14,759 nucleotides of DNA, from NCBI GenBank assembly GCA_004028495.1, contig MTKS01000013.1:1-14759 (forward strand), in the 5' to 3' direction. The DNA comes from Candidatus Electrothrix marina. GTDB taxonomy: Bacteria; Desulfobacterota; Desulfobulbia; Desulfobulbales; Desulfobulbaceae. The translations under genes and the position numbers were made by a program. Shown here in pieces: positions 4,679-12,663 of this stretch. Each line of letters begins with the position of its first letter. Positions within the stretch are counted from its first letter, which is position 1. The notes under the pieces were generated by a model, which did no database searches, was not told the DNA's origin, and saw nothing but the letters and a program-made list of their open reading frames with translations.

Positions 4679-5710
4679 TCAAGGAAGGCCATACAGTACA
4701 AAATTATTCATAAGCGCTGTTGTCGCCTTTCTGATTGCGTGCTCAAAAAGTGTATCGTACTGATTATCAGCAAGGACTGATTCCGGCGCGACTCTCACAT
4801 CAACTCGATTCGTCCATACCACGCTTGCATCATAGGCACTTTGCACCCAAATACGCATTTGAACAACCGCTTGATCGACTCTGCCACCGTGGGTTGCCAT
4901 ATCGCCGAGTGCCGCTCCGGCAGCGGCCCATGCTATCGTATTAGCACCTGCACCGCCACTGATACCTAAAAAGCCTGTTGAGCTATCAGGGTTCCATGGA
5001 TTATTCGCGCTCGCACCGACGATGGTTCCCCACGTCCCGCCAGCAAGCAAATTATCCCAATTATCATACTTGGCTGAGTCAGCAAATCCAAAAGCCATTC
5101 TGCTGGTGCTGCCGATAGCAAAAGGGAGAAGCCCACGTTTCCAAGGAGCCCAAGTATGCTCCTGCCTGGTCCTGAACTCAAGAATACGGCCTCGAATGAT
5201 ATAGTCGGTTCCAAACTGCCTCCCGATTTTCACCACTTCCTGGGAAGTCAGACCATGCGTCCCCGGTCCGTCCGGTCGGGCAGTGCTGCTACCGATATTC
5301 TGGTGCTGCATATATCCCTGCAGTTTTTCTTTCATAACACCGGACCAATCAGAATCCTGAAGCTCATAAGCAAGAGATGCAGAACCAGGATCATCATATG
5401 GTGCAATGCTGATAATTTCCTGATCAAGAAGATACTGAAAAACATCTTCCTGCACTGTTAACCGGAAGCCATTACTCGTGAGGTTGTCTGTCAGTGATTC
5501 TGTAATCAGAATATTGCGGCGAAATGCTGATGCAATATTATCACCGTTGCTATAATCGGCAAAAGGTAAAATAACAGCAGACATGCCTTTGCCTCGACCG
5601 TTAGGATCTACCTGAGCCGGGACCATTAAGGTTTCAACAGTGTTTTTACCGCAACCGGTGACTGCACCGATTAATACTATCCCGATGGATATGTATTTCA
5701 GCAGGTTCAT
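4679..5710 (-). CDS. CsgG-like outer-membrane lipoprotein at end of pilus operon
   Basis: A 343-residue protein with a lipoprotein signal peptide: a short basic N terminus, a hydrophobic stretch, then VTGC with the lipidated Cys at 20. Residues ~43-98 (SAVILPFADYSNGD, later ESLTDNLTSNGFRLTVQEDV) and ~157-180 (EVVKIGRQFGTDYIIRGRI) resemble the periplasmic fold of CsgG/FlgO/GNA1162-type lipoproteins, which assemble or brace outer-membrane channels. A glycine/alanine-rich stretch (~223-275) is followed by VQMRIWVQSAYDASVVWTNR (283-302), like the last CsgG strands. The ATG at 5710 has a good ribosome site (GGGAG, 5717-5721 on the complementary strand). It is the last gene of the operon, 51 nt after the secretin and ending before the shared terminator. 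A role at the secretin ring is inferred from context; the family call is from pattern recognition only. Confidence 0.72.
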   Translation of the reverse strand: MNLLKYISIGIVLIGAVTGCGKNTVETLMVPAQVDPNGRGKGMSAVILPFADYSNGDNIASAFRRNILITESLTDNLTSNGFRLTVQEDVFQYLLDQEIISIAPYDDPGSASLAYELQDSDWSGVMKEKLQGYMQHQNIGSSTARPDGPGTHGLTSQEVVKIGRQFGTDYIIRGRILEFRTRQEHTWAPWKRGLLPFAIGSTSRMAFGFADSAKYDNWDNLLAGGTWGTIVGASANNPWNPDSSTGFLGISGGAGANTIAWAAAGAALGDMATHGGRVDQAVVQMRIWVQSAYDASVVWTNRVDVRVAPESVLADNQYDTLFEHAIRKATTALMNNFVLYGLP

Positions 5711-5761: not shown

Positions 5762-7696
5762 TTAAATAATACGTGGTCTCAGCAGAATGATCAACTCACG
5801 CTTTGATTTTTTCTTTTCCTCGTAACCGAACAGATATTTTAAGTAAGGTATGTTTTCTGTTCCAAAAAGAAAATCTCCGTCACTCGCCTCCGTTTCAGAG
5901 ATAAGCCCTCCGACCACGAGCATCGATCCATTTTTAACCTTCACAGTGGTACTCATTTCCCGCTTATTGACGATAGGGAGACCAACCTTACCCTCGCCGA
6001 CCGTTACATATTCAATCGGTTCCATCAGCTCTGAAGTTATCGGCACCAAATTCATAATAATTTCATCATTGTTTCTGACGACAGCTGATAAAGCAAGCCC
6101 AATACCAGAAAGAAGCTGTTCAGTATTCACCGTAAATGTGGTTTTATTCTCCGTAGTGCTGGATTCAATACTGTTGATAAAAGTGACCTCGCGCCCAACG
6201 CTGATAAGCGCGGGCTGACCATTCATTACACTAATTTTCGGATTCGAAAGGACAGAGGTCTTTCCTTGCTGTTTCAGCGCATTGATAAACTTATCAAATG
6301 AAAAGGCCGTCAGATTTATTCCGGCAATTGCCGCATTGGCTGCTCCCCCGGTAATAAGGGTCGCGATTGTGCTTGCCGCTGACGTCCCTGATGTTAACGT
6401 GTTTGTAAGAGAATTTAAAGTTGAAACAGAGTCAGTAAGTAGACTGGAATCTGTTGTTAAACCTGTTGTTGATCCTGTTGATCCTGTTGATCCTGTTGTG
6501 CTAGATGTACTATCTGACCCTGAGGTTGACCCTGAGGTGCTTGTGTTAGTGAAGTCATTCGTCAAAGAACCTAAATTATCCAAGCCGGATGAATTCGAAT
6601 TGGTGGTACTGTTTAACGTACTGTTTATATTTTCAGAAATATCCGAAGAACTTGTACCGTTCTCATTCAATTCTGAAGTCTCTTTACCGTAGTAATTTTC
6701 AGCAACAGCAGAACCACCAGCAAACGTTAAATTTTGCAATAAGGTCTGCCAATTGATACCCAAAGAAGAGTTATTTTCCAGCTGAACTTCAATAATTTTC
6801 GCCTCAATAATAATCTGCTTATACAATTCCCGCTCAAGAGTTTCCAAATAATTGCCAATCCTTTTCTGCAAGGATTTGGGAGCATGAACTGTTATCAAAC
6901 CAACAGGTTTATCAATAGTGTAGCTTGACTCGGTGGACGACACCCTACGCGACACCTGATCTACTGGCTTTTCTTCCTCTTCCCCGTCCTTTTCTATATC
7001 TCCACCACTATCTTCTTCAGGATTCGTTATTGTTGCACTCCATGTCGATAAGAGGCTATCAATATTGTTCTGAATGTTCTCCCAAATATCAAAGGTATTC
7101 CCTTTACTGTCAATACGTACATCACTGCCGAATGAATTTCCCCCGATTGCTGTATTATACTCCTGCTTGACAAAGGGCATAGCAACCTGATACTGCTTTG
7201 TTTCTCTGTATTTTACAATAAGAGTAGAGCCCTCCACTTCATGAAAATAATCCAGCTGGCGTAATATATTATCAATCGCTTCGTAAAAATTATCATCGGC
7301 AGTGACATCAATATCTACAGTAAGCTCCTGATTCACATCACTGGCCCAACTCAAGCTCATTTTTTTATTTCTGATCAGGGCCTTCATTGCTTCCCGCAGA
7401 GTTATCGGCTCATGCGTTGTGATGTCTGCCCCGACCTTGAGCTGAAATTCGTCAGAAGCCTCGCTATCAAGCATAGCGTTCGCCTCATCATCGTTAATTA
7501 TGTATCCTGCTCTTTGAAAACGTTGCGGCAACAAAGAAGGCTCAATCACTGTGCGTTGTTTTTTTTCAGGGGCTGTGAGACGAGCAGTTTGGTTGTTCTC
7601 ATTTTCCGACTTCTTACCTATGCATGAGCAAAGAAGGAGAGCCGCCGCTGTCACCGCCAAAACACTGTGCAATAATCGAGTATTGCTTTTCATCAT
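5762..7696 (-). CDS. mshL: MshL-like lipoprotein secretin (type IV pilus outer-membrane pore)
   Basis: A 644-residue secretin that should form the outer-membrane ring through which the pilus passes. Residues 1-25 are a signal peptide ending in LCSC, a plausible lipobox (Cys25). Residues ~95-165 look like an N0/STN domain. An acidic spacer (~225-245) is followed by a KH-like N domain (~262-298) starting VGLITVHAPKSL. The secretin domain runs from KQIIIEAKIIEVQLENN (~293) to the end, with LSNPKISVMNGQPALISVG (483-501), LLSGIGLALSAVV and the terminal RELIILLRPRII. Lipidation and the LSNPKISxxN...LLSGI pattern fit MSHA-type MshL better than classical PilQ. Residues ~340-445 are a Ser/Thr/Asn/Gly-rich insertion. 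aagga upstream would suit either ATG 7696 or the adjacent ATG 7693. It follows the TPR gene after a 53-nt gap. Confidence 0.88.
   Translation of the reverse strand: MMKSNTRLLHSVLAVTAAALLLCSCIGKKSENENNQTARLTAPEKKQRTVIEPSLLPQRFQRAGYIINDDEANAMLDSEASDEFQLKVGADITTHEPITLREAMKALIRNKKMSLSWASDVNQELTVDIDVTADDNFYEAIDNILRQLDYFHEVEGSTLIVKYRETKQYQVAMPFVKQEYNTAIGGNSFGSDVRIDSKGNTFDIWENIQNNIDSLLSTWSATITNPEEDSGGDIEKDGEEEEKPVDQVSRRVSSTESSYTIDKPVGLITVHAPKSLQKRIGNYLETLERELYKQIIIEAKIIEVQLENNSSLGINWQTLLQNLTFAGGSAVAENYYGKETSELNENGTSSSDISENINSTLNSTTNSNSSGLDNLGSLTNDFTNTSTSGSTSGSDSTSSTTGSTGSTGSTTGLTTDSSLLTDSVSTLNSLTNTLTSGTSAASTIATLITGGAANAAIAGINLTAFSFDKFINALKQQGKTSVLSNPKISVMNGQPALISVGREVTFINSIESSTTENKTTFTVNTEQLLSGIGLALSAVVRNNDEIIMNLVPITSELMEPIEYVTVGEGKVGLPIVNKREMSTTVKVKNGSMLVVGGLISETEASDGDFLFGTENIPYLKYLFGYEEKKKSKRELIILLRPRII
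6467..6497 (-). repeat. 9-nt tandem repeat in the secretin low-complexity region
   Basis: Three perfect copies of gatcctgtt (6471-6479, 6480-6488, 6489-6497 as read on +) encode the GSTGSTGST tract, with a degenerate copy next to them around 6460-6470. The unit is a multiple of three, so copy-number change would lengthen or shorten the protein without shifting the frame. Confidence 0.85.
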
Positions 7697-7749: not shown

Positions 7750-8316
7750 CTAATTATTACCGGTTTTACTCAGAATAAATTTTTTCAGATCCGGTGGTAC
7801 CCGGAACCCGGCATGAAGAATAGCCTTGTATTTTTTGCGAGCTGCTCCGTAATCCCCCAGAGAATCATATATACGGGCTTGGGCAACCATTGAATTGAGA
7901 TCTTGCCCATACAGCTCCTCTAATTTTTTCAACAAACGCAGGGCTGCATCATATTGCCTTTGTCGCTCACTGAAGGCAGCATAGCTGATCAATGCCTCTC
8001 TACTCGGTGTTCCAGTATTAACACTTTGATCAAAATATTGCTGTGCCTGACGGTACTCTTCCATATTCGCGTAGCCGATAGCTGCATTTAAGGCAGCAGC
8101 ACTATTTTTCTTATCTGCTTTAAGTGCCTTTTTAGCGAAGAAAACAGCCTTTGCATTCTGGTTGAGTTTGCCAAGATAAGTTGTCGAAATTTTATTTGCA
8201 AGCTTTGTATTTTCGGGCCATTTGCCAAGTGCCTTTTCATAAAATCGAACAGCTGTCTCAAGATCACCTTTTTTTTCAGCTGCTCTACCGTTGGCTATCA
8301 ACTTTTTTTGCTTCAA
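7750..8316 (-). CDS. TPR protein of the pilus operon (possible C-terminal half of a frameshifted gene)
   Basis: A 188-residue protein made almost entirely of TPR helices: units at about 6-34 (GRAAEKKGDLETAVRFYEKAL), 38-66, 74-102, 108-137 and 142-175. It has no signal peptide or membrane segment, yet both neighbours are exported. The only available start codons are TTG at 8316 or TTG at 8301, neither with a convincing ribosome site, and the frame overlaps the upstream gene by 32 nt. Within that overlap lies a run of seven A. Removing one A joins the two frames and produces a natural first TPR helix (LEAKKLIANGRAAEKK). MSHA loci encode a membrane-anchored TPR protein, MshN, next to the secretin, so a periplasmic TPR partner would fit. 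TPR identity is strong; whether it is an independent gene is uncertain. Confidence 0.8.
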   Translation of the reverse strand: MKQKKLIANGRAAEKKGDLETAVRFYEKALGKWPENTKLANKISTTYLGKLNQNAKAVFFAKKALKADKKNSAAALNAAIGYANMEEYRQAQQYFDQSVNTGTPSREALISYAAFSERQRQYDAALRLLKKLEELYGQDLNSMVAQARIYDSLGDYGAARKKYKAILHAGFRVPPDLKKFILSKTGNN

Positions 8317-9361
8317 GTTGCTCAGGGGGAAGGTCTCTTTCCCCTGTATATGTTATCCCTTTCTTCTTCTGATCATCTATTATGTCGTTATCTACTTTAA
8401 TATCAATACCTTCATCTTCTTGTTTCGGCCAGAAAAACTCTTTGTCTTTCGGATAGATAACAATAGTATTATCTCTTTCCATCTTTGCCAAATCTTTAAG
8501 ATTCAGAATAATATCAAGGGCAAATTGCCAAGGAACATCAGTTAATGCAAGGGTCAGGTTTCCGGAGACACCTCCGGCAATCACTATATTTTTGCCCGTA
8601 ATCTCGCGCAGCATCCTGAAAACATTGTGAAGATCAATCTTGTAAAAGTCCACACTGATCGTCTCGGTGTCCCCTATTTTACTATCTTCTTTTCCTCCGG
8701 ATTTATCTTCAGACCCGGTCGTGCCGGCACCGGCAACAGAACTCAGCACATCAGTCATATCCGGCAAATGCTTATCAATTGTCTCCTGTTCAACTCCTCC
8801 TTCTTTTGGCTCGGATAATGAAGAAACGCCTGTGGGCTGTTTCTCATCTGCTGCAGAAGAAGGACTGTCGCTTTTTTTTCCAGAGCTTACCTGCTCCTCC
8901 GTAAAAAAATTTTCCAGAGTAAGAACAAGGTCGTTCTCGTTCCATTTCAGAGTGTAATTATATTTTTTTGCAAAGGAAAACTCAACACGTACGAGTTCAG
9001 GAGAGACATCCCTAATCAGTTTACTTGCCACCCCTACGCCGTAAGATTCAGGAGACAGCACAAGCTCAGCGCCGGATGCTATTGCTGCATCAGCAATATC
9101 AATAACTATTTTTGAGGGTTTTGTTAATTCTATAGGGATATAATCTGCTTTCCCGCTGCAATGAGCAGAGATCTCGAGATTCTTTCCAACCGGGGCGGCA
9201 CTGAGCCCATTAATCAGAATCTGTTCATGGGAAGGACTCTCTTCCGCTGCCAAAGCAGGCATGCTCACCGACAACAGAATAAAAAGCATCACGCAATAAA
9301 TAAAACAACAGGAGCGATTACGCCTACCTTGTTGCTGGTTGGTCGAAAAAAAATGAGGCAT
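8285..9361 (-). CDS. AMIN + secretin-N0 domain protein (front half of PilQ without the pore)
   Basis: A 358-residue exported protein. Residues ~1-39 are an unusually long signal peptide (basic RRNR, hydrophobic IYCVMLFILLSVS, cleavage near ALA-AEE). Residues ~47-152 resemble an AMIN domain (peptidoglycan binding in PilQ and AmiC). A polar Ser/Glu/Lys-rich linker (153-232) leads to an N0/STN domain at ~233-305 (ISVDFYKIDLHNVFRMLREITGK, then ALTDVPWQFALDIIL). Classical PilQ has AMIN and N0 joined to N1 and the secretin domain in one chain; here the chain ends about 50 residues after N0. The ATG at 9361 has a GGGAG ribosome site inside the end of the preceding gene, 2 nt away. The 3' end overlaps the TPR frame by 32 nt at an A7 run. 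It may dock PilP-type proteins and peptidoglycan; this is inference from domains. Confidence 0.85.
   Translation of the reverse strand: MPHFFSTNQQQGRRNRSCCFIYCVMLFILLSVSMPALAAEESPSHEQILINGLSAAPVGKNLEISAHCSGKADYIPIELTKPSKIVIDIADAAIASGAELVLSPESYGVGVASKLIRDVSPELVRVEFSFAKKYNYTLKWNENDLVLTLENFFTEEQVSSGKKSDSPSSAADEKQPTGVSSLSEPKEGGVEQETIDKHLPDMTDVLSSVAGAGTTGSEDKSGGKEDSKIGDTETISVDFYKIDLHNVFRMLREITGKNIVIAGGVSGNLTLALTDVPWQFALDIILNLKDLAKMERDNTIVIYPKDKEFFWPKQEDEGIDIKVDNDIIDDQKKKGITYTGERDLPPEQLEAKKVDSQR
8303..8309 (-). other. A7 run at the junction of two overlapping reading frames
   Basis: On the coding (-) strand the sequence is GCA AAA AAA GTT in the upstream AMIN+N0 frame, which then stops 5 codons later at 8285-8287. 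The TPR frame reads the same bases as CAA AAA AAG TTG. Loss of one A, by polymerase slippage or by a sequencing or real indel, or a +1 ribosomal shift, places the ribosome in the TPR frame. A -1 shift would instead hit TGA immediately. Confidence 0.5.
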
Positions 9362-9363
9362 TT

Positions 9364-9825
9364 TTATTTATCTCCCTCTTTTTTCAAATACATTATTATT
9401 TCCTTTGTAACAATCCTGCCTGTTGTGGTGCTGTAAGTTTCTGTCAATTCAACCTGTTTATCTTCAATTCGACTGACTACACTTTTCCCTACTCTTGAGC
9501 CTTTATTTAGATAATACCCTTTTCCGGAAGCATCTTCCACCATTGCCACCCTTTCCTTCCCTATAACTACCACTGCAGCCAATTTAAAATTCTGCATAGG
9601 GGGAGGGGTGTTATCAGGAGGGGGTACTCTTTGATTTATAAACGGCTCAAAAGGATCAGACCTGTATTCCATTTGATACTGAAATGGACCTTTTTTCCGT
9701 AAAAGCTTCTGTTTTTCATTGGTTACAATATCTTCCCGAGTTCCTGCTATTACCCAGGAGAGATGACTCATCTGCGCCACAAGGCAACTCATTATCAGGA
9801 CACTTTTTCTGGAGAGTTTTTTCAT
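9364..9825 (-). CDS. pilP: PilP-type pilus assembly protein, second copy
   Basis: A 153-residue protein with an N-terminal signal sequence (basic MKKLSRK then a hydrophobic stretch to about residue 27). It has the PilP pattern: YRSDPFEPF (54-62) in the disordered arm, then a compact beta domain KLAAVVVIGKERVAMVEDASGK (81-102) and TGRIVTKEIIMYLKKEGDK at the end. PilP links PilN/PilO to the secretin N0 domain. No lipobox is apparent, unlike many PilPs. A Pro-rich stretch PPPDNTPPP (68-76) separates arm and domain. The ATG at 9825 has AAGGA about 8 nt upstream. It is 17 nt after the other copy and clearly its paralogue, with almost the same last 18 residues. It is shorter and more diverged at the N terminus. 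Confidence 0.85.
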   Translation of the reverse strand: MKKLSRKSVLIMSCLVAQMSHLSWVIAGTREDIVTNEKQKLLRKKGPFQYQMEYRSDPFEPFINQRVPPPDNTPPPMQNFKLAAVVVIGKERVAMVEDASGKGYYLNKGSRVGKSVVSRIEDKQVELTETYSTTTGRIVTKEIIMYLKKEGDK

Positions 9826-9842
9826 AGAACAGTCCTTTTTCC

Positions 9843-10358
9843 CTACTTATCACCCTCTTTTTTCAGTCGCATTATGATTTCCTTTGTAACGACCCGACCA
9901 GTCTGCGTTTTATAATTTTCTGTTACTTCAACCTGTTCACCTGTAATTCGATTAATAATACCATGTCTGCCGATAAGCATATTTTCATCCAAGCGATAGC
10001 CTTTTCCAGTAACATCTTCAACCATAGCGACATTTCTGTTTCCGATTTTCAGCAGGGCAACCAGCCTCAGTTGTCCAGGTTCAAACAGTTGCATTCCTGT
10101 TAATGGTACCCCGGTTTCCTCTTCTATGGGTGTATCATCTGTCTCGTCTCTACCGCTATCTTTTGACAGGAAGGGTAAAAAAGGGTCTGACCTGCCTTCA
10201 ATTTTATACTGAAATTTATCGACCTCCCGCACTTCCCCCGCTTGCGCATCTTCACTGACAATATCGCCTTCTGCAGCACAAATTACCCCATTCTGTAATC
10301 CTGCCGCTACGAGCAACATTAATAGAGCAGCCAGATGTTTTTTCACAATAAGCTTCAT
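9843..10358 (-). CDS. pilP: PilP-type pilus assembly protein, first copy
   Basis: 171 residues from the ATG at 10358: a signal peptide (MKLIVKKHLAALLMLLVAAG), an acidic stretch, GRSDPFLPF (55-63), an acidic linker (DETDDTPIEEE), then the PilP beta domain with LRLVALLKIGNRNVAMVEDV (97-116), TGKGYRL and the terminal TGRVVTKEIIMRLKKEGDK. PilP sits in the periplasm and couples PilN/PilO to the secretin. The frame is open further upstream to 10418, but that part lies inside pilO and would put 20 charged residues before the signal peptide. The ATG at 10358 leaves a 16-nt gap to pilO and has a modest AGAAG ribosome site. No lipobox Cys in proper context is evident. Confidence 0.87.
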   Translation of the reverse strand: MKLIVKKHLAALLMLLVAAGLQNGVICAAEGDIVSEDAQAGEVREVDKFQYKIEGRSDPFLPFLSKDSGRDETDDTPIEEETGVPLTGMQLFEPGQLRLVALLKIGNRNVAMVEDVTGKGYRLDENMLIGRHGIINRITGEQVEVTENYKTQTGRVVTKEIIMRLKKEGDK

Positions 10359-10374
10359 TGAATCTTCTAGCCTG

Positions 10375-11010
10375 TCACTTTTTTGATTTCTTTTGAGCTT
10401 GAGCGCGTTCTTCCTCATTGAGGAAACGATAAGTCAATAAATTGCAGGAGGAGCTGAGCAGCATCTCGCCTTCCACTAGTTTAGGACTTCCCATAGTGAT
10501 ATCTTGCACAGTTACAATCCGTTCGAGCTTGCTGACCTGATCAAGAAAATAACCGACATTATGATAAGGACCGCTGACTGTGATACTAATGGGAATTTCT
10601 GCGTAAAATTCTTTAGGGCTTTCATTGCCCGGAGTAAACGAGTTAAAATCGAGGCCCGCACTTGTCCCATGATCTGAAATACTGGTCAGCAACGCAGGGA
10701 TTTCTTTTGTTTTAGGCAAGACAATAGAAATTTCCTCAAATTTTTTCTCCGCCTCTACGAGTTCCGCCTCATGTTGTTTTAAATTCTTTGAAGCTTTTTC
10801 AGCCTTATCCACATCGGCCTGCAAAGAAGTCTTTTCCGACTCCAGCGTCTTTATCTTTTCTAAATTTGGTGCAAAAATAAAGAAATACCCCCCAGCAGCC
10901 AATGCGAACACCAGAACGATTACTCCGGCTATCTTAATCTTTTGATCAAGGGGAATATATTTTTCTTCAATAAAAACGTCAAATTTGGATTTTGTGCTTT
11001 CCGAGGCCAT
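10375..11010 (-). CDS. pilO: Type IV pilus inner-membrane protein PilO
   Basis: 211 residues with the PilO layout: a short cytoplasmic N terminus (1-25), one membrane helix (~27-47, IAGVIVLVFALAAGGYFFIF), a Lys/Glu-rich coiled coil (~51-97), then a ferredoxin-like periplasmic domain with LPKTKEIPALLTSISD (98-113), GLDFNSFTPGNES and ISITVSGPYHNVGYFLDQV (141-159), which is a typical PilO signature. PilO pairs with PilN and binds PilP to form the alignment complex. The ATG at 11010 is 9 nt after the pilN stop; the ribosome site is weak, suggesting translational coupling. Confidence 0.94.
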   Translation of the reverse strand: MASESTKSKFDVFIEEKYIPLDQKIKIAGVIVLVFALAAGGYFFIFAPNLEKIKTLESEKTSLQADVDKAEKASKNLKQHEAELVEAEKKFEEISIVLPKTKEIPALLTSISDHGTSAGLDFNSFTPGNESPKEFYAEIPISITVSGPYHNVGYFLDQVSKLERIVTVQDITMGSPKLVEGEMLLSSSCNLLTYRFLNEEERAQAQKKSKK

Positions 11011-11019
11011 AATAGAATA

Positions 11020-11604
11020 TTATTTTTTCCCCTTTTCTTCTGATGCCTCATCATCCGTTCCCGGGAGAGTGACAGAACAAGACAAAGAAAATTTTTTCAA
11101 ATTTCTCCCCCCGTACTTACTCAAGGCAGAACTCCCCAAGGTCACATCCGCAAGGTAGGAAGATTTTTTTAATTCTTCAAGATATGTCGCGATTGTTCGA
11201 TTGTCCAAAGCCATGCCGCCCACCTTTAACCCACTGACATTCTGAGAAAAACTGGACAACCACATCCGTTCGTGCGGTGTTGCACGAGCAATCTCGTCTA
11301 AAATATGCACCGTAAGCTGTGACTTTTTTTGCAGCTCATGTACGATACTTATCTGCTGTTCGACAAGTTTCTTTTTTTTCTCCAGCTCAACAATCAAATC
11401 CAGCGTCTTTTGCAGCTCTTTCTTCCGCGCAGTAAGGTTTTTAATATCCCCTTCCAGTCCGCTGACTTTTGCGAATAAAAAACCAGTCCCTAATAACAAT
11501 ATGACAAGGGCTGCAATAATGGCAGCTCCGCTTAGGACAAGGTGCCTGATCGCCCGCGTCTTCTGTTTCATCTGCCGCACAGGCAGGAGATTAATCCGGA
11601 TCAT
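11020..11604 (-). CDS. pilN: Type IV pilus inner-membrane protein PilN
   Basis: 194 residues beginning MIRINLLP; the INLLP motif (4-8) is the cytoplasmic segment that inserts into PilM. A membrane helix (~22-45) is followed by a long Lys/Glu/Leu coiled coil (~47-95) and a periplasmic ferredoxin-like domain (~96-180, including MWLSSFSQNVSGLKVGGMA and RTIATYLEELKKS). The tail is charged (DDEASEEKGKK). It starts 3 nt after the pilM stop, so translation is likely coupled. Confidence 0.95.
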   Translation of the reverse strand: MIRINLLPVRQMKQKTRAIRHLVLSGAAIIAALVILLLGTGFLFAKVSGLEGDIKNLTARKKELQKTLDLIVELEKKKKLVEQQISIVHELQKKSQLTVHILDEIARATPHERMWLSSFSQNVSGLKVGGMALDNRTIATYLEELKKSSYLADVTLGSSALSKYGGRNLKKFSLSCSVTLPGTDDEASEEKGKK

Positions 11605-11607
11605 ATC

Positions 11608-12663
11608 TTAAAATTCTGCCGGTCGAATTGCCAGTCCGGCCGCTATAGACATTTCAGGAGCAACAGCTTCAAGGTATTCCAAATCGATCTTTTTTTCATT
11701 GACTTTCATTCCTTCAAAAGGATTAAAAGCAATAATCTCAAGACCGGTTTCACTGGCGAGATAGCTTCTCAAACCGCGAACTTTGGAGCCTCCGCCGCTA
11801 AGGACAAGAGCGGAAAGCGGCTTTTTGGGATTATTATTGCTGTAAAGATCAATAGCCTTTTTTACTTCCAACACCCATCTGGTACAAATCTGAGTAAAAA
11901 TTTCATGAAGTTCCTCTTTGTATTCCTCTTGGGCCTCAATTCTGCCTGTTTTAATCTGCTCGGCCTCTTCATAATCAATATCAAGAGTATTAGCGATTTC
12001 TCGGCTCAAATCGTCACTGCCCATGACCACATCCCGGGCAAGAACGGAGGCACCACCTGCAATAATATTGATATTCAATTTAGACGCTCCGATATCAATC
12101 AGGCAAACGTTCTTATCACCGCCTGATACCGTTGTCCAAATATTTTCCAGGGCAAAGCCGTCAACATCCACCAAGGCAGGCACAAGTTTTTGCGCCTCCA
12201 ACATTGAACGATAAGCGTCAATAACCTCTTTTTTAGCCGCCACCAGCATAACTTCACTGCGATCGAACTCATCTTCCCCGGCCTTGAGCACCTGAAAATC
12301 TAAATACACCTCATTAATATCAAAGGGAATATACTGCTCAGCCTCTTCATTGAGGCGCTCCGCAAGTTCTTCCTCGCTTTCCATTTCAATATTAATTTTT
12401 TTAACAATAACTGAATAGCCGGAGATTGACAGCCCGACGCGCTCTTTATTTTTTATTTTGAGATTTTTACATAATTCTGCAATGGCAGTCCCGACATCCT
12501 CGGCATCCTGCAAGACGCCGTCCTCGACAGCACCGGGCGAGATCGCAGCACTGCCGAGGGCGACAAGCTGATAGCCGTCCTTGCCAGCTTTCTGAATCTG
12601 ACAGACTTTTACCGCATGGGAGCCGATATCAATCCCGACGACAAACTTCTCTTTTTTTGCCAT
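11608..12663 (-). CDS. pilM: Type IV pilus assembly ATPase-fold protein PilM
   Basis: A 351-residue actin/FtsA-like cytoplasmic protein that binds ATP and the PilN N terminus. Motifs: phosphate-1 loop VVGIDIGSHAVKV (8-20), EEAEQYIPFDINEVYLDFQV (106-125), which is strongly characteristic of PilM, phosphate-2 CLIDIGASKLNINI (187-200), and the adenosine motif LVLSGGGSKVRGL (286-298). It is the first gene of the operon; the ATG at 12663 has only a weak A/G-rich upstream sequence. A promoter-like pair lies about 90-120 nt upstream. Length and motifs are normal. Confidence 0.96.
   Translation of the reverse strand: MAKKEKFVVGIDIGSHAVKVCQIQKAGKDGYQLVALGSAAISPGAVEDGVLQDAEDVGTAIAELCKNLKIKNKERVGLSISGYSVIVKKINIEMESEEELAERLNEEAEQYIPFDINEVYLDFQVLKAGEDEFDRSEVMLVAAKKEVIDAYRSMLEAQKLVPALVDVDGFALENIWTTVSGGDKNVCLIDIGASKLNINIIAGGASVLARDVVMGSDDLSREIANTLDIDYEEAEQIKTGRIEAQEEYKEELHEIFTQICTRWVLEVKKAIDLYSNNNPKKPLSALVLSGGGSKVRGLRSYLASETGLEIIAFNPFEGMKVNEKKIDLEYLEAVAPEMSIAAGLAIRPAEF

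Follow-up and report, generated by a model that had tools for sequence, protein, structure and literature searches.

A type IV pilus gene for an AMIN-N0-TPR protein, very probably split by a one-base error in a draft Candidatus Electrothrix marina genome

The window, i.e. the whole stretch of 14,759 nucleotides that was analysed, is the entire contig C13 of a draft assembly of Candidatus Electrothrix marina, a cable bacterium. The assembly comprises 2,054,615 bases in 472 contigs and is 69.83% complete. On the minus strand of the window, two reading frames that meet at a run of seven A's (A7) are positioned between genes of the PilM, PilN, PilO, and PilP types and a secretin gene. Searches of the window for Rfam matches and tRNA genes found none. 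The features of the locus are as follows.

9364..12663, minus strand: upstream operon genes PilM, PilN, PilO, and two PilP-like genes, assigned by profile matches and comparison of loci
9361-8285, minus strand: AMIN+N0 frame, 358 aa, with an ATG start; its stop codon ends 18 bases past the A7 run
8303-8309, minus strand: A7 run, the meeting point of the two frames, read from the sequence
8316 to 7750, minus strand: TPR frame, 188 aa, with TTG as first codon at 8316; it spans the same A7 run
8276-8269, minus strand: run of eight A's (A8) in the same gene, 26 bases downstream of A7; longer than the junction run and in frame (internal control)
5762-7696, minus strand: MshL-like secretin gene, scoring slightly below the family cut-off and carrying a Ser/Thr/Gly-rich insert; the 3' neighbour in most relatives

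The first-pass annotation had noticed that the AMIN+N0 and TPR frames meet one base out of phase at the A7 run, and reading of the minus strand confirms this observation. Its count of 353 and 183 residues for the two parts agrees with the measured pieces (350 whole codons before the run and 183 after it). The TPR frame is +1 relative to the AMIN frame. The 5' part of the gene encodes a hydrophobic N terminus, an AMIN domain, and a PilQ-type N0 (STN) domain, and the 3' part of the same gene encodes a TPR domain. Pfam gives STN, GspD-N0, and AMIN signals in the first frame, each somewhat short of its cut-off; the second frame matches TPR repeats. Neither a ribosome site nor a signal peptide is seen before the TPR frame, as judged by eye in the sequence only. 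Residues A368 and K369, which are nearly invariant in the family, are encoded exactly at the A7 run. Therefore, the lesion can be placed at this run.

The AMIN+N0 and TPR pieces were used as separate queries against 57 genomes, including the window's own. The N-terminal piece is matched in 51 of the 57 genomes and the TPR piece in 55. Fifty relatives give a strong TPR match (E <= 3e-26), and the open frame is at least 495 aa long in 49 of them; in the fiftieth (G023), it has 316 aa and appears to reach the contig end. A strong match to either piece is absent in six relatives (G017, G020, G027, G028, G035, and G052). The junction is read through in one frame in all 29 relatives that were aligned and in 7/7 congeners. 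The AMIN/N0 and TPR matches also lie in a single stop-free frame at 79/79 loci kept from named records, which were drawn from the best 80 of 217 confirmed stretches, a choice that favours complete copies. Within the best 80, the closest named loci belong to a Desulfobulbaceae MAG, Candidatus Electrothrix gigas, and Ca. E. aarhusensis, and Ca. Electronema is more distant. Comparison of homologous loci had been proposed as a check for one or two genes; it finds a single gene in every relative examined.

A search of a protein database found 587 relatives of the protein. The 120 listed include 119 besides the window's own, and 112 of these 119 have at least 450 aa, not all of the 112 bearing a precomputed TPR domain. 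The nearest named proteins among the matches listed are from Ca. Electrothrix. The seven shorter proteins (<450 aa) sit on contigs of 1.3–8.3 kb. Five of the seven were inspected: three cross the junction in frame, one stops before it, and one (P0043; 330 aa, 2,104-base contig) ends at the junction, which we count against a sequencing or assembly error. Also counted against an error is P0129, a protein with an internal Met start that is identical to the final 104 residues encoded by the window's gene and is recorded from another contig, of 11,581 bases; none of the 41 contigs of the window's genome that were examined has this length. The record may belong to a further assembly of the same species in which the gene is likewise interrupted, or reflect a contig edge. 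On the TPR side, 14 of 18 proteins were read; two are the window's own, and none of the other 12 starts at the junction like the window's TPR frame. Two TPR-side records (P0134 and P0138) look, by eye, out of frame elsewhere in the TPR part, which suggests that scattered indels are present in other draft assemblies too.

At the junction codons, the A runs of the seven congeners comprise 6, 6, 6, 6, 7, 8, and 2 A's, all in frame. The four congeners with six A's at the junction position are G003, G004, G006, and G001; the other three differ. Conservation of the run was a further check that the first-pass annotation had proposed. The congeners have 2–8 A's at the same codons, always in frame, and the run is not conserved. 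In the window's genome, A7/T7 runs occur 316 times in 477,544 bases, and the A7 itself is unremarkable.

We compared 40 contigs of the window's genome, including the window (474,717 bases in total), with 1.6 Mb of the one-contig congener G006. One further stretch of the window's genome consists of N and was set aside. This forward comparison gives 139 gene matches covering 127,572 bases, and a lone single-base frame break is present in six genes of the window's assembly, which amounts to about one per 21 kb of the coding sequence compared. The six genes are as follows.

Contig C13: the window's AMIN-N0-TPR gene, lone single-base break relative to G006
Contig C11: EF-G (elongation factor G), lone single-base break relative to G006
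Contig C21: SdhB/FrdB-type subunit, lone single-base break relative to G006
Contig C39: DapA, lone single-base break relative to G006
Contig C27: S1-like ribosomal protein gene, lone single-base break within ~250 bases of the contig end
Contig C41: glutamate-synthase-small-subunit-like gene, lone single-base break within ~250 bases of the contig end

For EF-G, SdhB, DapA, and the S1-like protein, the whole or nearly whole query is matched in one place in 7/7 congeners and in two pieces in the window's genome. Judging from the lengths of the open frames, the single stop that G001 and G002 show in DapA, and G004 in S1, is taken to lie outside the coding part. The broken EF-G is an equivalog by TIGR00484. 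EF-G paralogues with 36–45% identity are present in all seven congeners, and the window's genome has one (residues 78–684, 41%). Because of this paralogue, which we count against an error, the main EF-G could conceivably have been lost, although this is very improbable. Two further observations are counted in the same direction. The breaks in the S1-like and glutamate-synthase-like genes lie near contig ends, and the five other genes are one base short relative to G006, whereas the window's gene is one base long, in a run. The window's gene also differs in length from that of G006 at other sites that jointly keep the frame, as expected because the identity is ~70%. An extra lone single-base break is present in a short frame of toxin-antitoxin type (104 aa) and is left out of the six.

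The control is the reverse comparison only, in which frame breaks of G006 are seen with the frames of the window's genome (132 matches, 128,133 bases). In this comparison, no G006 gene that is otherwise intact carries a lone single-base break. Six reverse rows show more than one frame. Three of them are accounted for by a paralogue pair, a duplicated short frame, and the antisense of a site already seen in the window's genome. The other three (L155/L230, L159/L204, and L244/L175) each show several indels on alignment rather than a lone break. Most reverse rows with stops have them in the first 50 residues; four rows have deeper stops and are taken as shadow frames without further proof. In the forward direction, stops are confined to the 33 N-terminal or 14 C-terminal residues; the exceptions are two short frames of 102 and 111 aa. 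Six of nine early forward candidates proved to be shadow frames or sites with several indels (five on alignment, the sixth being the antisense of EF-G). Three later forward candidates were dropped: one is a tandem pair of paralogues, one a duplicated short frame, and one a row of 150 aa in which several indels occur. Because the same assembly has similar breaks, some of them in genes that a living cell needs, the break in the window is an ordinary one.

Published Ca. Electrothrix genomes from single filaments were obtained by short-read sequencing of DNA that had undergone whole-genome amplification, a step to which one study attributes probable chimaeric artefacts (PMC10580974, PMC10926707). 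From the fragmentation of the assembly and the breaks listed above, we infer that the break in the window may have a similar origin. Antonov et al. (2013) describe unclustered frame transitions that are confirmed by BLASTp as expected sequencing errors, not indel mutations (PMC3711429). Like these singletons, the break in the window is confirmed by homology and is common to no relative examined. Unlike that survey, which as described deals with complete genomes, our comparison deals with a fragmented draft.

We also estimated dN/dS for the two pieces counted apart. Between the window and G003, G006, and G004, the values are 0.19–0.24 for AMIN+N0 and 0.05–0.08 for TPR. Among these three congeners themselves, they are 0.31–0.35 and 0.07–0.09, respectively; the window is not higher. 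For three more distant congeners, the values are 0.14–0.22 for AMIN+N0 and 0.05 and 0.08 for TPR, the third TPR value being undefined and dS being near saturation. Both halves are under strong purifying selection, and constraint is not relaxed downstream of the break. The values give no sign that function was lost long ago; a very recent loss would look alike.

With high confidence, though short of certainty, we interpret the locus as one type IV pilus gene for an AMIN+N0+TPR protein, split in the draft because a one-base error arose during sequencing, amplification, or assembly. The length of the A run would differ by one base in the draft, making one gene appear as two frames. The base difference would be absent from the organism's own DNA, and the cell's product is most likely a single uninterrupted protein of ~536 residues. 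The first-pass annotation had left two options, a single-base change in one gene and slippage that yields two products. The former is well supported by the single gene in the relatives and by the other breaks in the assembly; the latter is not supported, in view of the shortness and lack of conservation of the run, the unbroken frame at this site in every relative examined, and the direction of the shift. On the preferred reading of an error in the draft, the split pilus gene is a false lead, and the real object is one AMIN-N0-TPR pilus protein that is widespread in Desulfobulbales. Split or missing genes called from this assembly, and perhaps from similar draft genomes of cable bacteria, should first be checked against relatives.

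A real and recent one-base mutation, private to the strain or filament, is less likely than an error, and we consider it improbable. Such a mutation would make the gene a fresh pseudogene or leave it partly switched off, and could have arisen by replication slippage at the A run, possibly reversibly. Runs of A are a usual site of such mutations. In addition, the break lies inside the contig, not at its end, it is seen in no relative examined, and the clusters of P0121 and P0129, of 2 and 3 sequences respectively, could contain interrupted copies that stem from other assemblies. Hypermutability of runs is described in the literature as well (PMC1088944). However, at least five further lone single-base breaks are present in the same assembly, some in hardly dispensable genes, and A7 runs are common in this genome, as counted above. 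The constraint on both halves also speaks against a mutation, though a very recent one fits it too. Two separate adjacent genes, one for an AMIN+N0 protein and one for a TPR protein, match the two frames as assembled but are scarcely credible. This arrangement is found in no relative examined, A368 and K369 at the junction are nearly invariant in a single protein, the bases of the TTG codon are not preserved in all congeners, and the 12 other TPR-side proteins read all begin elsewhere than at the junction.

If transcriptional slippage or ribosomal frameshifting took place at the A run, the gene would have two products, a short one (AMIN+N0) and a long one (AMIN+N0+TPR). We regard this as very improbable. 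As in the reported slippage of Thermus dnaX, at nine A's, and of some IS elements, in which eight A's are suggested to be productive (PMC1088944), an A run is present exactly at the frame transition. Single-base deletions in runs are also reported to happen in transcription (PMC5574713). Unlike in dnaX and the IS elements, the run in the window is unconserved, and no relative examined has a transition. Its seven A's are short compared with nine, or with the eight suggested in some organisms (PMC1088944), and the runs of 2–8 A's in the congeners are all in frame. Baranov et al. report that, for a large share of bacterial genomes, selection against A/T runs is evident at a length of nine, and they treat conservation of a run among homologues as a mark of function (PMC1088944). 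The direction of the shift is also unfavourable. The long product requires an mRNA that is shorter by one base or longer by two, whereas slippage at A runs is mostly +1; as reported for transcription in A/T runs, insertions prevail, and deletions occur mostly elsewhere, with some in runs (PMC5574713). A −1 ribosomal shift would not reach the TPR frame, which is +1, and the −1 frame hits a stop within a few codons. Finally, the longer A8 in the same gene is not accompanied by a change of frame. A true length switch in this Electrothrix species, in which reversible slippage would part the peptidoglycan-binding AMIN+N0 from the TPR, is rated just as low. If it were real, some cells or transcripts would be without the TPR, and assembly of the pilus secretin could be tuned along the filament.

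Taking the gene as intact, in line with an error in the draft, its product has AMIN, N0, and TPR in one frame, as at all 79 loci from named records, and its gene belongs to a PilM-N-O-P/secretin operon. The usual gene order in relatives is PilM-PilN-PilO-PilP-(AMIN-N0-TPR)-secretin. Within the fetched stretch, the secretin gene is present at 72 and PilM at 69 of the 79 loci from named records, several of which are cut by contig ends. The AMIN+N0 part gives a profile match to the PilQ structure 3jc8 (E 4.2e-35). The N0 of a congener protein (L004) aligns with positions 2–75 of 428 of TIGR02515 (PilQ), scoring 62.1 bits against a cut-off of 284.35. The protein thus resembles PilQ (TIGR02515; structures 3jc8, 6ve2, and 9x0w) in the sequence match of AMIN and N0 and in the PilM-N-O-P operon setting. 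No secretin domain was found in the AMIN-N0-TPR protein, which therefore departs from the domain order of PilQ (AMIN+N0, then N1 and secretin). Unlike PilQ, it has a TPR domain in place of the secretin domain, and the secretin is encoded by the next gene and is MshL-like.

The TPR part is reminiscent of the TPR pilotins Tgl/PilF/PilW, in which the TPR domain also belongs to a type IV pilus protein. The match is weak: the TPR part of L004 scores 31.1 bits, well below the cut-off of 154 for TIGR02521 (PilW/PilF/Tgl). Unlike Tgl, which is a separate lipoprotein with six TPRs, the TPR here is fused behind AMIN+N0. In reports on Myxococcus xanthus, binding to peptidoglycan at the septum and the poles is proposed for the AMIN domains of PilQ, and Tgl, a TPR pilotin, is described as acting with PilQ and promoting its multimerisation (PMC10653833). 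The intact protein is probably exported. By analogy with PilQ and the TPR pilotins, its AMIN domain probably binds peptidoglycan, its N0 domain probably docks on the secretin or on inner-membrane partners, and its TPR domain probably helps secretin assembly. The fusion of AMIN+N0 and TPR, encoded beside an MshL-like secretin, points to a possible helper in placing and assembling the secretin. A thin literature search at the level of titles and openings of abstracts found no description of the AMIN-N0-TPR architecture and no paper on cable bacteria with PilQ.

The neighbouring genes show some features of their own. The MshL-like secretin (5762-7696) scores 233.9 bits with TIGR02519, against a cut-off of 250.2. 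Its long Ser/Thr/Gly-rich insert precedes the secretin domain, and similar but diverged inserts are present in four relatives (L062, L063, L064, and L069). The two PilP-like genes of the window form a tandem pair at 9364-10418; at the sensitivity used, clearly separate double PilP matches are present in only 3 of 75 relatives' loci. Downstream of the secretin gene lies a 343-aa gene (4679-5710) that gives no Pfam or NCBIfam match. Its N terminus is lipoprotein-like by eye, and a match to it is present in 60 of the 79 relatives' loci.
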